From contig JAFUPC010000016.1 of assembly GCA_017481495.1 (NCBI GenBank), forward strand, positions 1 through 64,000: a stretch of DNA of 64,000 nucleotides. The letters run 5' to 3'. How positions within the stretch are numbered: position 1 is the stretch's first letter; the number at the start of each line of letters is the position of its first letter. Origin of the DNA: Clostridia bacterium. GTDB taxonomy: Bacteria > Bacillota > Clostridia > Oscillospirales > CAG-272. Under the pieces are notes generated by a model. It ran no database searches, was not told the DNA's origin, and saw only the letters and a program-made list of their open reading frames with translations. A program made the translations under genes and the position numbers. Below, one piece after another: positions 18,131-23,702 of this stretch.

Positions 18131-19588
18131 TCAGAAGTTCAGAACGTGTTCCTTGAATGCTTTTCCGCGTACCTCAAAATTCGGGAACGCATCAAAGCTG
18201 GTACACGCAGGGGAGAGGATGACGGTGTCGCCCGGAAGAGCAAAGTCCCGTGCGGCATCAATGGCGGCATGGAAATCGGGTTCCACTTTCACTGGAACAC
18301 CGGATGTGGCAAATTCCGCGCTGGCATTCAGGGCGGCGAGTATCTTATCCCGCGCGGCACCGGTGAGAACGACGGCTTTCGCGTGTGCGGCAAGCGGTGC
18401 GCAGAGCGCGTCAAACGGCACCCCTTTGTCGGCACCGCCTAAAATGATGATGAGCTTTTCGGGAAATGCATTCAGCGCGGCAATTGTGCGGGTGGGCGAG
18501 GAGTCGATGGAGCTGTTGTAGTATTTCACGCCGTTTCTGGTGCAGACGTATTCTTCTCTGTGCTCGACACCGCCGAAGGTCTTTGCGACCTCTGTGATGG
18601 TGTCGGCATCCACATAGCCGCGCACCGCCGCGATGGCGGTCATGTAGTTCTCAACATTGTGCCGTCCCGGCAGGAAAATGTCGGATGTGCGCAGGATGGG
18701 GAACGGTTCTTCCCGGAGATTTCCCCCTGCATCTGCCGAGAAGCAGATCTCCCCGTTTTGCTCAAAAATCGCGGCATCGCACCCCTTGCCCGGAGTCGGT
18801 TCGCCTTTGGAGGAAAACATCGTGACGTGTCCCGGGGCTTCTCCCGAAAGGGAACGGGTGATGTCGTTGTCAAAATTGAGAACGAGTCTGCCGCCGCGTG
18901 CCTGGAAGCGGAATATCTGCGTTTTCGCATCGGTGTATTCGTCCATGTCCGTGTGCCAGTTCAAGTGGTTGGGCGAAATGTTCGTAATGCACGCAACGTC
19001 GGGCCATGGGCGGAAGTCCCGTCCGGTCTTCAGTGCCTGCAATTGGAAGCTGGACAGCTCCAGCACGACGAAATCCTGCTCCGTGATGTCCGCAATCTCC
19101 GGCAGAAGCGGTTTGCCGATGTTGCCACCGACGTAAACTTTTGACGAAGAACCCTCTTTTTCGCACTGGGCAGAGAGCATTTTATAAATGAGCGTTGTCG
19201 TGGTCGTCTTTCCGTCAGAACCGGTGACAGCGAAGATCTGCGCGGGGCAAAGTGCCAAAAAGACCTCCATTTCCGAGGTCACAGCACAGCCGTTTTTCCG
19301 TGCTTCCTCGATCTCCGGCACGTCCGGCCGGATGCCGGGCGCCTTGAAGATGATGTCCTCGCGGATGTCACAAAGATAGTTCTCCCCAAGCGAGAGGGCA
19401 ACGCCCTTTTCTGCAAGGGTGTCAGAGAGCGCGCCGAGCTGTTCCTTTGTCTTTTTATCGCGCCCGACGACAGTAGCACCCGACGACAGCAGAAAGTCGA
19501 TGACCGGGGTGTTGGAAATGCCAAGCCCGATGACGGAGACGGTTTTCCCCGCAATGTCGCGGCGGAAGGTTTCAAGTTTCTCGTTCAT
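18131..19588 (-). CDS. murD: UDP-N-acetylmuramoylalanine--D-glutamate ligase
   Basis: The protein has 485 residues and adds D-glutamate to UDP-MurNAc-L-Ala in the cytoplasm. It begins VSVIGLGISNTPVIDFLLSSG (UDP-binding domain). The ATP loop is VTGSDGKTTTTTLIY near residue 120, with the central domain motif ISPNHLNWH and a C-terminal domain from about 330. I chose ATG 19588 over an upstream in-frame start because AAAGGA lies 11 bases before it and the extension is AT-rich promoter sequence. It is isolated from the usual dcw cluster and heads a five-gene minus-strand run. Confidence 0.92.
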   Translation of the reverse strand: MNEKLETFRRDIAGKTVSVIGLGISNTPVIDFLLSSGATVVGRDKKTKEQLGALSDTLAEKGVALSLGENYLCDIREDIIFKAPGIRPDVPEIEEARKNGCAVTSEMEVFLALCPAQIFAVTGSDGKTTTTTLIYKMLSAQCEKEGSSSKVYVGGNIGKPLLPEIADITEQDFVVLELSSFQLQALKTGRDFRPWPDVACITNISPNHLNWHTDMDEYTDAKTQIFRFQARGGRLVLNFDNDITRSLSGEAPGHVTMFSSKGEPTPGKGCDAAIFEQNGEICFSADAGGNLREEPFPILRTSDIFLPGRHNVENYMTAIAAVRGYVDADTITEVAKTFGGVEHREEYVCTRNGVKYYNSSIDSSPTRTIAALNAFPEKLIIILGGADKGVPFDALCAPLAAHAKAVVLTGAARDKILAALNASAEFATSGVPVKVEPDFHAAIDAARDFALPGDTVILSPACTSFDAFPNFEVRGKAFKEHVLNF

Positions 19589-19628
19589 GTATGGTGAAAT
19601 CCTTTCGGAAAAATAGCATATATATAAT

Positions 19629-19657
19629 ATTATATAGACTTTCCGTAATTTTATCAA
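19629..19657 (-). promoter_or_regulatory. Promoter of the murD run
   Basis: On the minus strand TTGATA (19652-19657) and TATAAT (19629-19634) have a 17-base spacer. Confidence 0.7.
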
Positions 19658-19781
19658 GTCTTTTTCGGAAAATTCTTCCCATCGGAGTGAAAAAATTTTT
19701 CATCGGGTGCTGGGCGACGTTCCCGCTCCAAAGTGTTCCGGCAGAATTCCCCGCCGCCAGCTCTTTTCCGGCAAATTCCGT

Positions 19782-20040
19782 TTTTCCACATTGTTCACAC
19801 TTTATTATAAAATTATCCGTAAATTTTAGGATTTCCGCCGCCGGGGTGTGGAAAAGTTCTGCGCAGCCGCCCGTTCTCCTGTGGAAAAACCTTTGGAAAC
19901 TGTGAAATTTCCGCTGATTTCCGGGAGTTGGTTTTCCACATTTTCCACAGAACGGGGTGTGGAAAACGGAAGAAAACTCCTGTTCGGAGAGGGCGTTTTG
20001 GCGATACCGTAAAACGATGCACAAGGAGAGGTTTTCCACA
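19782..20040. other. Cluster of seven TTTTCCACA DnaA-box-like 9-mers
   Basis: TTTTCCACA occurs exactly at 19782-19790, 19932-19940, 19941-19949 and 20032-20040 on the plus strand, and as TGTGGAAAA at 19857-19865, 19890-19898 and 19958-19966. TTGTTCACA abuts the first copy. Each differs by one base from the DnaA box TTATCCACA. An AT-rich stretch lies inside (about 19800-19830). No gene is present across 19589-20111. It could be an origin-like, DnaA-titrating or DnaA-regulatory region. No dnaA or dnaN is in the window, so I do not call it oriC. Confidence 0.6.
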
Positions 20041-20061
20041 GGAAAACAGTATTCCCAAACG

Positions 20062-20092
20062 CAAAAGGATTCACGCCGCAAAGCGTAAATCC
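20062..20092 (-). terminator. Terminator after the substrate-binding lipoprotein pair
   Basis: Ten-base arms at 20067-20076 and 20083-20092 (GGATTTACGC / GCGTGAATCC on the minus strand, one G-T pair) are followed by TTTTGCGTTT. Confidence 0.65.
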
Positions 20093-20111
20093 TCTGATTG
20101 GTTTATGGGAA

Positions 20112-21626
20112 TCAGGATTCCAGGTCAAGGAATTTCTCCATATATTTATCCAGTTTCTTCTGGGCGGATTTCTGGATGGATGCCGTCTTGGATGCCAGAT
20201 TGTCCTTGCCTGTCGTGATGATTGTGGTGATGGTCGATGCGAAATTCGTGATGCCGCACATATAGTCGAGGGAATAAACCTTGGATGCAAAGAGGATGTC
20301 GATCATTTCTTTGGATTGTTCGTCGCGCAGAATCTTTTCGTCAAGGAATACTTCATAAAAACTCGGTGTCAGCGTGAACATGGACTCATAGCCCATTGCT
20401 TCCGTGATGAGTGCGGTTTTATGTAGGTCGGGGACAGTGGTCGGGATGACGAGCGGCATGGAATCGTTGTGAACCATGCAGTAGTAGCCCTCCTGCGATT
20501 CGTCGTATTTCGGGATGGGAAGAACGCCGAAGTCCGTCTGCATATCGCGCAGGTCAACGGTATCGCCGAATGTGCCGGTACGGAACAGCGCGCGGTTCTC
20601 GGAGAAGATCTTCGTCGCTTCCGTCCAGACGGATTCCGTGGTCAGCTCGTTTGCGTGCGTGCCGTCGTCCATGACGATGACGGCGGTCTTGTCGCAGAGC
20701 AGCTCAAAAATATTCTCGAAAATATCGTAAACCTTGGAATCCTCAATATCAAAGACATAAGATTCGTTTTTCAGCGTGATGCAGTCGCGCCCGGATGCGA
20801 GATACAGATACCATCCGGCGAGGTTTTCCGTGATGAGACCGTACTGGTCGGCAACGGTCAGGTCGCCGTCACCGTCCACGTCCATCGTGACATCGCGCAC
20901 CATCGACTTCATCTGTTCCCACGTCCAGGTACCGTTTGCAACAAATTCATACGGGTCGGGATAATCGTAATCGGCGTACACCTTTTTGTTGTAGAGCACC
21001 GACATCTCGCGCAGCTCGTCGCGGATCTGGATGTCGCCTGTAAGGCAGTAAAGCTGTCCGAACACGGACAAGTCGTCCTGGATGCGCTGATCCCACCACG
21101 GTTGACTGAGCTGAAGCTCATCCACGGTATTCAGGTCCCAGAAACACCCTGCCTGTGCCAGTGTCATCGCATCGCCGATGGACGACGGGAACACGATGTC
21201 CGTAAAGTCGTCCGCCGCCTGGATGTTCTTTCTGACGACGGAATTGGTGTCGGAAAGCTCCTGCAATGTGATGGTGATGTTGTACGCTTCCTCCACCGCG
21301 CGGTTGCGGGCGTAGACGGCATCGTTCAGCGTGTCGCCGTTTTCTTCCTCCGTGTCATAAGCGACCTGCTTGAATACCAGTGTATTGTCCGTGAGCACCG
21401 ACATCCGGAACTCGTAGCCGCCGAAGTCTTCTGTCGGCGGTGCAAATGCCGCATACGCCTCCCGTGGGTCGGGCTCCGTCGTCTCCGCGGTGTCCGTTTC
21501 TGGGGCAGCTGTCGTTGTCACGGTTGTGTTGTCCACATCTGCGGCATCACCGCACGAGAGGAGAACAGCGGAGGAGGTACACAGCAGTGCCAGCATCCAA
21601 AGTAAGGGTTTTCGGGTTTGTCTCAT
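20112..21626 (-). CDS. Extracellular substrate-binding lipoprotein (ABC-type), first paralogue
   Basis: The protein has 504 residues. The signal peptide ends in the lipobox VLLSC (Cys near residue 25), followed by a Thr-rich linker. The body (from about 60, GGYEFRMSVL; NDAVYARNRAVEEAYNITI; VANGTWTWEQM near 250; DVDGDGDLTVADQYG near 275) is that of large family-1-like solute-binding proteins common in gut Clostridia. It would sit on the outer face of the membrane and bind a sugar or oligosaccharide. No permease or ATPase gene adjoins. ATG 21626 has AAAGGAG 12 bases upstream. It follows its paralogue at 21675. Confidence 0.85.
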   Translation of the reverse strand: MRQTRKPLLWMLALLCTSSAVLLSCGDAADVDNTTVTTTAAPETDTAETTEPDPREAYAAFAPPTEDFGGYEFRMSVLTDNTLVFKQVAYDTEEENGDTLNDAVYARNRAVEEAYNITITLQELSDTNSVVRKNIQAADDFTDIVFPSSIGDAMTLAQAGCFWDLNTVDELQLSQPWWDQRIQDDLSVFGQLYCLTGDIQIRDELREMSVLYNKKVYADYDYPDPYEFVANGTWTWEQMKSMVRDVTMDVDGDGDLTVADQYGLITENLAGWYLYLASGRDCITLKNESYVFDIEDSKVYDIFENIFELLCDKTAVIVMDDGTHANELTTESVWTEATKIFSENRALFRTGTFGDTVDLRDMQTDFGVLPIPKYDESQEGYYCMVHNDSMPLVIPTTVPDLHKTALITEAMGYESMFTLTPSFYEVFLDEKILRDEQSKEMIDILFASKVYSLDYMCGITNFASTITTIITTGKDNLASKTASIQKSAQKKLDKYMEKFLDLES

Positions 21627-21674
21627 TGTTATATCGCTCCTTTCGGATAAAACCGGGATTTTCTCTCCGGTCAA

Positions 21675-23159
21675 TCATTCCACATCGACAAACGACGTCA
21701 CCGTTTTTTCCATCGCGGAGGAGACCTTTGCAGAGACCTTTTCCACGCGGGAAACGATGTCGGTCTTGCCAAGGGACATCGCTTCTCTGATTTTCGTGAT
21801 GACGTCGCCCCACGAGTAAACTGCCGCCAGCTCCACGGTGCCATTGGAGAACATGATGTCGAGCATCGCCTGACCCTCGTCGTCCTGGATATATTTGAAG
21901 TCCAGTGTTTCGTCAAAGTAGGTCTGCATGACGGTCTCGTGCGAATACGCGGCGAGATATTCTGCGACAACACCGGTGCGTTCCGTGTCGGGGTTCGTCT
22001 TCGGGATACCCATCGCACTTGCACCATGGAAAATGTAGGAACGGTAGCCATCCTGCGATTCGTCGTATTTGGGGGTCGGAACGACGCCGATCTCGTAATC
22101 GACATCCCGCAGACGCTTGATGGAGCCGACCGGCTCAATATAGAAGAGAACCTGTCCCGACTGCATCATAACGTGGAGGATCTGACTGCCGTTTTCGGAG
22201 ATGAAGCCGTCGGCAAAGACGACGTTGTCCGATTTGTCGGCAAACATGGTCGAAACGAGCTTTCCGTAAACGTCGACGAATTTTTCGGTCAGACCGTTCC
22301 AGACGGGCATATTGTCCGCATCCTTTGTGATGATGTCGGTTTCTGCGGCGGTCGTCAGACTGGTGATATTGTGCGCATAAACACCGATGCCGTACCGGTC
22401 GGCGACCGTCCATTTTCCGTCGCCGTCCACATCGTTCTTCGCCGCTTTCGCCATTTCCGCCATGACATCAAGCGTCCATGTGCCGTTTCTGACGAGCGTA
22501 TAGGGGTCGTCAAGGTCAAGCTCCGTCAAAATCTGCTTGTTGAACACGACCGGGATGAAGCATTCGTAGTACATCAGGTGCAGATCGCCGAATGCGGCGT
22601 AAATGGGGTCGCCGATGGTCGCGGATTCGATGGCGGATTTGTTCCACCACGGATTGTCGAAATTGAGCGTGGAGACCTGCGACAGGTCGAGAAGATACCC
22701 GCTCATGGCATCATTGAGTACGAAGTGCAGTTCGTTGAAGTAAATATCGTAGGCATCCTCACCCGCCATGACGAAATTCTTGACGGTGCTGATGACGTCG
22801 TAATATTCCATATCCTTGATGGTAATGGTGATGTTCAGTGCCTCCTCCACGGCGGCATTGCGCTCGTAAATGGCATCGTCCAGTGTCTCGCCGGTCTGTC
22901 CGTTGCTGCCGAAATTGGTATAGGCAAAGTCCGAGATGTTGTTGAGCACGCGGAACTCATAGCCGCCATAATCCTTTTCCGGCAGGACGTCGTAAATAGA
23001 CGGTGCGGCGGTTTCTGTGACGGCGGTGGTGTCAGTCGCCGGTGCGGTGTCGTTCTGCGGTGTCTGTGCGCTGTCGGCGCAGGCGGTCATCAAGGCGGGG
23101 ACGGCGGATGCGCATAATAAAGTCAGGAGCCACGCGGCGGTTCTGCGGATTTTTTTCAT
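21675..23159 (-). CDS. Extracellular substrate-binding lipoprotein (ABC-type), second paralogue
   Basis: The protein has 494 residues. The lipobox is ALMTAC (Cys near residue 27), and the rest parallels the gene at 20112 motif by motif: GGYEFRVL, DDAIYERNAAVEEALNITI, VRNGTWTLDVM, DVDGDGKWTVADRYGIG and a PTPKYDESQDGY segment (IPKYDESQEGY in the partner). The pair are tandem duplicates separated by 48 bases and share one promoter. Ligand specificity probably differs, because the central regions diverge. No transport partner is visible, so they would rely on a permease elsewhere or act as sensors. Confidence 0.85.
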   Translation of the reverse strand: MKKIRRTAAWLLTLLCASAVPALMTACADSAQTPQNDTAPATDTTAVTETAAPSIYDVLPEKDYGGYEFRVLNNISDFAYTNFGSNGQTGETLDDAIYERNAAVEEALNITITIKDMEYYDVISTVKNFVMAGEDAYDIYFNELHFVLNDAMSGYLLDLSQVSTLNFDNPWWNKSAIESATIGDPIYAAFGDLHLMYYECFIPVVFNKQILTELDLDDPYTLVRNGTWTLDVMAEMAKAAKNDVDGDGKWTVADRYGIGVYAHNITSLTTAAETDIITKDADNMPVWNGLTEKFVDVYGKLVSTMFADKSDNVVFADGFISENGSQILHVMMQSGQVLFYIEPVGSIKRLRDVDYEIGVVPTPKYDESQDGYRSYIFHGASAMGIPKTNPDTERTGVVAEYLAAYSHETVMQTYFDETLDFKYIQDDEGQAMLDIMFSNGTVELAAVYSWGDVITKIREAMSLGKTDIVSRVEKVSAKVSSAMEKTVTSFVDVE

Positions 23160-23241
23160 GGGGATACCTCCTCTCGGTCGGAGCCGAATTGAAATATATC
23201 ATAATATGATGGGACATAGATGAAATTCCTTATTTATGAAT

Positions 23242-23270
23242 ATTATATCAGATATGAGAAGATTTGTAAA
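23242..23270 (-). promoter_or_regulatory. Promoter of the substrate-binding lipoprotein pair
   Basis: On the minus strand TTTACA (23265-23270) and TATAAT (23242-23247) have a 17-base spacer. Confidence 0.65.
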
Positions 23271-23300
23271 TGATTTTTTGCATATTTTTTTGAAAAGATA

Positions 23301-23338
23301 AAAAAAGGATACCTGCAAATCGGAAATTCGCAGGTGCC
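23301..23338 (-). terminator. Terminator of acpP
   Basis: The minus strand has imperfect arms around GG-ACCTGCGAA and TTTGCAGGT-TCC followed by seven T residues, just after the acpP stop codon. Confidence 0.75.
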
Positions 23339-23361
23339 CGGTCATCAGGGAACGGAATTGA

Positions 23362-23589
23362 TTATTTCTGAATGTTTTCAAGGTAAGCGACGACATCGCC
23401 GACGGTGACGAACTTTCTGTAGTCCTCCTCGTCGATCTCAATGTCGAACTTGGATTCGCAGCTGAAAATCAGGTCGGCAAGCTCCAGAGAATTGATGCCG
23501 AGGTCAGCGACAAGCTCGGCTTCGGGCTTGATGTCCGCCTCATCAATGTTCATCTGCTCCACAAGCAGGCTTTTGAATTCTTCAAACAT
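23362..23589 (-). CDS. acpP: Acyl carrier protein
   Basis: The protein has 75 acidic residues with the phosphopantetheine attachment motif DLGINSLELADL (Ser near residue 37). Length and charge are typical of the fatty-acid-synthesis carrier. ATG 23589 is used; AAAGGAT lies about 11 bases upstream. The gene is monocistronic and divergent from the genes that follow, including a pantothenate kinase whose pathway makes the cofactor this protein carries. Confidence 0.92.
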   Translation of the reverse strand: MFEEFKSLLVEQMNIDEADIKPEAELVADLGINSLELADLIFSCESKFDIEIDEEDYRKFVTVGDVVAYLENIQK

Positions 23590-23673
23590 GGTATATATGG
23601 ATCCTTTCTTTTCTTTGGCTGGTTTCATCCTTTTCGGAAAAGGATGGGAAATATTCAAACTGGTACAGCATAT

Positions 23674-23702
23674 ATGATACCGATTTTTCGCCGTTTTGTC
23701 AA
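23674..23702 (-). promoter_or_regulatory. Promoter of acpP
   Basis: On the minus strand TTGACA (23697-23702) and TATCAT (23674-23679) have a 17-base spacer. Confidence 0.7.

Follow-up and report, generated by a model that had tools for sequence, protein, structure and literature searches.

A near-fixed array of seven DnaA boxes, probably a DnaA-box cluster outside oriC, in a genus of Clostridia

The closest described systems to the locus studied here are the DnaA-box clusters (DBCs) of Bacillus subtilis and the datA and DARS sites of Escherichia coli. In B. subtilis, six DBCs are reported outside oriC, and the removal of all six leads to early initiation (PMC5295017, PMC13220808), no cluster being significant singly according to one review (PMC5295017 / PMC13220808). 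These clusters are termed oriC-proximal in the title of Okumura 2012, and the regions bound strongly by DnaA in vitro include gcp/ydiF, ywlC, ywcI, yydA and yqeG-sda (PMC4447404). YabA is a main negative regulator in the same organism. In E. coli, DnaA is driven to hydrolyse its ATP by datA and is reactivated by DARS1/2, the boxes of both kinds of site being spacing-critical (PMC5742627), and titration of DnaA by chromosomal boxes has received recent support (PMC12371093). A 2026 review gives datA and DARS as absent from B. subtilis, and the regulators balancing ADP- and ATP-DnaA there as unknown (PMC13220808). Our literature search found nothing on the element reported below, the central study of the B. 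subtilis clusters, Okumura 2012, being reached via reviews only; in these reviews, through which alone that paper is represented here, we found no report of a fixed architecture for the B. subtilis clusters.

The window, which is the whole 64-kb stretch of DNA analysed here, is part of contig C90 of the fragmented genome of an uncultured gut bacterium of the Clostridia (G000; 3.23 Mb, 126 contigs, 86% complete). Within 259 bp (19782-20040) it contains seven exact copies of the 9-mer TTTTCCACA, intergenic and in both orientations, at a distance of 0.2-0.45 kb from murD on its upstream side (Table 1). All seven DnaA-box-like 9-mers listed in the preliminary description are present, and the direct tandem pair is formed by boxes 4 and 5, with zero gap. 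Boxes 4 and 6 are 26 bp apart with their CACA ends facing. Matches with two mismatches are located at 19791 (+), 19813 (+) and 19892 (-); in some relatives the +12 or +21 position has a full or one-mismatch box, TTTTCAACA being the weak box at +21 in several of them. The AT-rich core of the preliminary description corresponds to a real A/T-rich stretch (25 of 30 A/T at 19800-19829, counted by eye), but one that flanks box 1 and is not central.

Table 1. Features of the element and its neighbours (positions in the window; identity is that of alignment columns in G000, G008, G002 and G001)
Feature	Position	Strand	Start relative to 19880	Identity	Remarks
DnaA box 1, TTTTCCACA	19782..19790	+	-98	100%	exact
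Weak DnaA box, TTGTTCACA	19791..19799	+		85%	2 mismatches; adjoins box 1
AT-rich stretch	19800..19846			62%	interval of boxes 1-2; 62% A/T
DnaA box 2, TTTTCCACA	19847..19855	-	-33	100%	exact
DnaA box 3, TTTTCCACA	19880..19888	-	0	100%	exact; reference
Weak boxes +12, +21	19889..19909	-		88%	GTTTCCAAA at +12 here
DnaA box 4, TTTTCCACA	19932..19940	+	+52	100%	exact; +51 in most relatives
DnaA box 5	19941..19949	+	+61	94%	exact here; adjoins box 4; relatives have TTTCCCACA or a close form
DnaA box 6, TTTTCCACA	19958..19966	-	+78	100%	exact
DnaA box 7, TTTTCCACA	20032..20040	+	+152	94%	exact
murD	18131..19588	-			TIGR01087, 339.6 bits vs cut-off 211.95; neighbour, outside element
murD leader	19589..19672	-			conserved with murD in congeners; conservation ends before element
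Predicted secreted lipoprotein gene	20112..21674	-			3' end faces element; lipoprotein nature predicted from sequence alone

Such a concentration of sites is far beyond random expectation. The window has 13 TTTTCCACA sites; 100 dinucleotide shuffles average 0.74 and never exceed 4. Genome-wide, the 9-mer occurs 116 times and its reversed pattern 32 times. Under a Poisson model that takes its site density from this genome, about 1e-13 clusters of seven in 259 bp would be expected, which bears out the claim that chance occurrence is negligible. Of the 116 sites, 100 were listed, and within these the largest cluster after the element comprises three sites (C68:26187-26326); equal clusters at many unrelated genes, one half of what the preliminary description had said would refute its reading, are not seen among the sites listed.

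To describe the element in its relatives we searched the nine genomes of the genus at the DNA level with window 19600-23700 as query; this and all other results below are sequence comparisons, of genomes that are mostly MAGs. The cluster (window about 19776-19970) is matched at 71-81% identity in other species, away from murD. On the whole, six of the nine genomes carry the element, two of the six with a partial array, and the search gives no match in G003, G005 and G007 (83, 74 and 58% complete, respectively). The array spacing is equal within 1-2 bp in G000, G002, G008 and G001. In G002 the boxes start at -97, -33, 0, +51, +60 (TTTCCCACA), +77 and +151, in G008 at -97, -33, 0, +51, +60 (a variant box), +77 and +150, and in G001 as in G008, the last box there having one mismatch. 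The partial arrays are those of G004, with boxes 2-6 kept as a mixture of TTTTCCACA and TTATCCACA, and of G006, with boxes 3, 6 and 7 kept (7 as TTATCCACA), box 4 degenerate and the left part lost. When G000, G008, G002 and G001 are aligned, identical pairs make up 372 of 378 (98%) in the box columns and 691 of 1176 (59%) in the other columns; by segment, the identity is 94-100% for the boxes, 85-88% for the weak boxes, 62% for the AT-rich stretch, 36-63% for the spacers and 20-42% for the outer flanks. This column pattern, with boxes kept and spacers not, is the footprint that a set of protein-binding sites would leave.

Beyond the genus, an exact search with a three-box pattern over 84,980 genomes returned 19 stretches. 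Four of them belong to congeners (L103, L105, L108 and L109), and three more share core sequence beyond the boxes and were kept as homologs along with these: L104 from an Oscillospiraceae MAG, L116 from Candidatus Flemingibacterium merdigallinarum and L118 from a horse-faeces Clostridia MAG. The gene contexts of L104 and L116 are unrelated to murD, and L118 lies at a contig end. Four other stretches (L102, L106, L114 and L120) were rejected as homologs, being beside dnaA- or rnpA-type genes as read from their ORFs; L107 and L112, with neither type of context, were also left aside, as were L110, L111, L113, L115, L117 and L119 on box pattern and model score. The core model R1 was built from nine sequences including L104, L116 and L118, which score 64.8-72.4 bits, high by construction as they are members, against 35.6 bits for the best non-member. 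Over 196 genomes of the family, R1 matches 119 at E<=0.001, mostly with low scores and often over part of its length, as is also the case at origins; matches under about 40 bits, a range that origins reach as well, were not counted as homologs. Strong full-length matches outside the genus are few. Since R1 matches no more than 10 of the 394 genomes searched in the order at E<=1e-8, the element as such is, as far as the model detects it, lineage-limited. Separately, MAGs G135, G024 and G379, of three species in two families, turned out to share a single contig (L126, L127 and L171; about 3.1-3.7 kb, identity 99.9-100%); this is probably mis-binning, and the three were left out of the counts.

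From the array and its conservation, we consider it fairly probable that the locus is a non-coding DnaA-binding element outside oriC, that is, a DBC, on which an ordered DnaA complex limits or resets the free active DnaA. DnaA would bind the seven strong boxes and the few weak ones, and with the order, orientation and spacing of the boxes kept, it would assemble into one defined complex; this complex would titrate DnaA and perhaps alter its nucleotide state, so that active DnaA would be limited at oriC, which in congeners is the stretch between dnaA and dnaN, and the timing of initiation would be set. We infer the binding and the complex formation from the pattern of the sites; that initiation would on balance be held back rests on the analogy of the B. 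subtilis DBCs. An ordered assembly is proposed because related species keep this arrangement of the boxes, and the near-fixed spacing over 250 bp suggests a defined, ordered DnaA complex rather than a loose sink. Among the three possibilities in the preliminary description, a datA-like titration site is the best in its broad sense of an extra-oriC DnaA-box cluster; of the detailed features of such sites, the DARS spacing is unmatched and the datA box pattern differs. YabA (PF06156) was detected in none of the nine genus genomes, with B. subtilis and L. lactis controls positive, and its absence from the genus is likely rather than proven because these genomes are incomplete.

A doubtful possibility is that the element acts as a DARS- or datA-like switch, in which the nucleotide of ADP-DnaA or ATP-DnaA assembled on the boxes is exchanged or hydrolysed, changing its activity beyond the free amount. 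The near-fixed spacing would fit such a switch, and so would the arrangement of boxes 4, 5 and 6, two one way and one facing, which when reversed read +0, -17 and -26, compared with +0, -14 and -26 in E. coli DARS1. In the published description of the DARS core, box I points against boxes II and III and the spacing is equal at both DARS; the essential datA boxes are given as co-directional (PMC5742627), as boxes 2 and 3 are here. However, the DARS spacing of box I facing II and III is not reproduced, the topology and the outer distance of 26 being equal and the middle box lying 3 bp off the DARS1 pattern (17 vs 14), and the motif used does not resolve the DARS2 core. Furthermore, datA and DARS2 are reported to require IHF, with HU no substitute (PMC5742627), and the reported absence of datA and DARS from B. 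subtilis (PMC13220808) also stands against a switch. That the element is a Bacillota counterpart of DARS/datA, switching the nucleotide state of DnaA without YabA and perhaps without IHF/Fis, is unlikely.

Control of a neighbouring gene, with DnaA acting through the element on the promoter of either murD or the lipoprotein gene, was suggested by the position of the array, 0.2 kb upstream of murD in G000, where the neighbour is confirmed as murD by TIGR01087. We find this quite improbable. Window 19600-19672, or the right part of it, aligns upstream of murD in five congener loci at 71-83%; this conservation of the murD leader ends at about 19672, and the element starts about 110 bp beyond. A serA-type dehydrogenase gene is next upstream of murD in seven of the nine genus loci read (G001-G006 and G008), followed by a serC gene in G006; G007 has other genes there, and G000 is also without the serA-type gene. 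In G001, G002, G004 and G006 the element is on the same contig as murD, about 3-7 kb off and in opposite relative orientation to that in G000, with the serA-type gene between them, so that among the five genomes with both on one contig the adjacency is found in G000 only. On the other side, the lipoprotein gene is oriented with its 3' end facing the element, as is a related gene that abuts the element in G002, G006 and G008. The product of 20112..21674 has zero Pfam, NCBIfam or PDB matches. Window 20112-23159 holds two adjacent lipoprotein-like genes without Pfam or NCBIfam match, and related gene pieces recur often in the genus. The flanks of the element are unconserved, the neighbours vary among murD/lipoprotein, lipoprotein/BlaI-type repressor and ABC exporter, and the element is kept independently of its adjoining genes. 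As the murD leader ends before the element and the congener synteny separates the two, the element is not a murD promoter element, and the DnaA control of murD proposed at the outset is abandoned on synteny. A local inversion probably brought the lipoprotein gene and the element beside murD in G000, because in congeners the element lies kilobases from murD, on the opposite strand and, in some of them, still abutting a lipoprotein gene. The junction of murD leader and element, window 19672-19782, is the rearrangement point, probably of this inversion, relative to the congeners.

A further reading takes the element as a replication origin, main or second, or as a former oriC half moved from dnaA, and we regard it as highly improbable. 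The many boxes in both orientations together with an AT-rich stretch would suit an origin, and dense box mixtures also occur in the dnaA-linked regions matched by the pattern and the core model; in G000, moreover, dnaA is not beside rpmH, which is located without adjoining dnaA on another contig than the element (C107; L006:11415-11543). The GC skew, however, speaks otherwise. In the congener G006, contig C32 has mostly negative skew to about 147 kb and positive skew beyond, with the switch at dnaA-dnaN, whereas the skew around the element (at 137.2 kb of contig C44) is negative in 17 of 17 bins from 50 to 220 kb; in the window of G000, it is positive in 13 of 13 five-kb bins, on both sides of the cluster. 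In G006 the element and oriC lie on separate contigs, whose ends give a lower bound of about 203 kb for the distance, and the skew of this congener places the element outside the functional origin. The dnaA gene was found in seven of the eight other genomes of the genus (53 of the 59 genomes searched), and it is on another contig than the element in G001, G002, G004, G006 and G008; a dnaA-linked origin elsewhere, the other half of what the preliminary description had said would refute its reading, is found in congeners. The dnaA-dnaN regions of six congeners have boxes of their own; five of these regions include two facing boxes at a distance of 24 bp, against 26 bp for the facing pair of the element. 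Neither dnaA nor dnaN was found in the G000 assembly, which is most simply explained by an assembly gap, and the single Bac_DnaA match of G000, considered as DnaA, proved to be a helicase-loader-like ATPase; the rejection of an origin rests for this reason on the congeners, by skew, linkage and architecture.

That boxes accumulated by chance or neutrally at the inversion breakpoint is hardly credible, since the murD side of the element is indeed the rearrangement junction in G000 but the same array and spacing are found in congeners without that junction, with box columns far better kept than spacers. A 169-aa ORF over the cluster was rejected as coding, the spacers being unconserved and the copies differing by 1-nt indels. 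Likewise rejected was a structured RNA, the only Rfam match being BTnc231 with 19.4 bits, where the cut-off is 80.4. As for RNA pairing of the facing boxes, TTTTCCACA and TTATCCACA vary independently in some relatives, which fits protein binding, and the mixture of TTTT and TTAT forms at kept positions argues for DnaA binding rather than RNA pairing.

Other box clusters were observed besides the element. At G006:C32:213505-213585, about 68 kb from oriC, there is a cluster of four boxes, at which starts a gene that we take to be YfiH-like. Of 26 readable tsaD (gcp) loci, 8 have at least three boxes in the 600 bp that follow the gene, and none has as many as two upstream; for this count 30 loci were fetched from the 59 genomes searched, and four of the 30 were dropped as the gene was missed by the motif. 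Clusters directly 3' of tsaD include L002:6188-6327, which is the three-site cluster of G000 on contig C68 (G000:C68:26187-26326), G006:C32:200758-200885, and those at L186, L190, L191, L193, L195, L199, L203 and L207. The gene following the cluster is rex at L130, where it was checked, and some other loci read alike. In four other genomes of the family (L124, L129, L131 and L139), the gene immediately preceding a box cluster is of the YifB/ComM Mg-chelatase-like type, an identity confirmed for L129 by TIGR00368 and a candidate assignment for the other three. B. subtilis DnaA binds strongly at gcp/ydiF, with 10 sites (PMC4447404 Table 1). This suggests that the cluster position 3' of tsaD is old and common to B. 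subtilis and some Clostridia; the match is one of position, and the clusters themselves need not be homologous.

With its near-fixed spacing, kept between species in which YabA was not detected, the cluster is a specific DNA site at which it can be asked whether Bacillota clusters act by titration alone or through a defined, perhaps catalytic complex. If the element were indeed a counterpart of DARS/datA, these Clostridia would possess a cycle of DnaA activity for which no equivalent is known in B. subtilis.

Compared with the Bacillota oriC (the region upstream of dnaA and the dnaA-dnaN region), the element has the same 9-mer boxes in both orientations but is without the dnaA linkage, the skew change or the 24-bp facing pair of the congener dnaA-dnaN regions. 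It resembles E. coli datA in size (262 bp for the minimal datA), in being a box cluster and in having some co-directional boxes (PMC5742627), and differs in its box pattern; datA is IHF-dependent and B. subtilis is given as without IHF (PMC13220808). With E. coli DARS1 and DARS2, as these are described, it shares a non-coding nature, a conserved spacing and a core in which two boxes are faced by a third, the outer boxes being 26 bp apart in DARS1 and here; it differs from DARS1 in having the middle box 17 (vs 14) bp from the facing box and in having more boxes. DARS2 is IHF/Fis-dependent. Finally, like the DBCs of B. subtilis, it is a cluster outside oriC on a Bacillota chromosome, with 7 boxes here and 7-11 sites there (PMC4447404 Table 1), and unlike them it has another location and a spacing that is kept between species.
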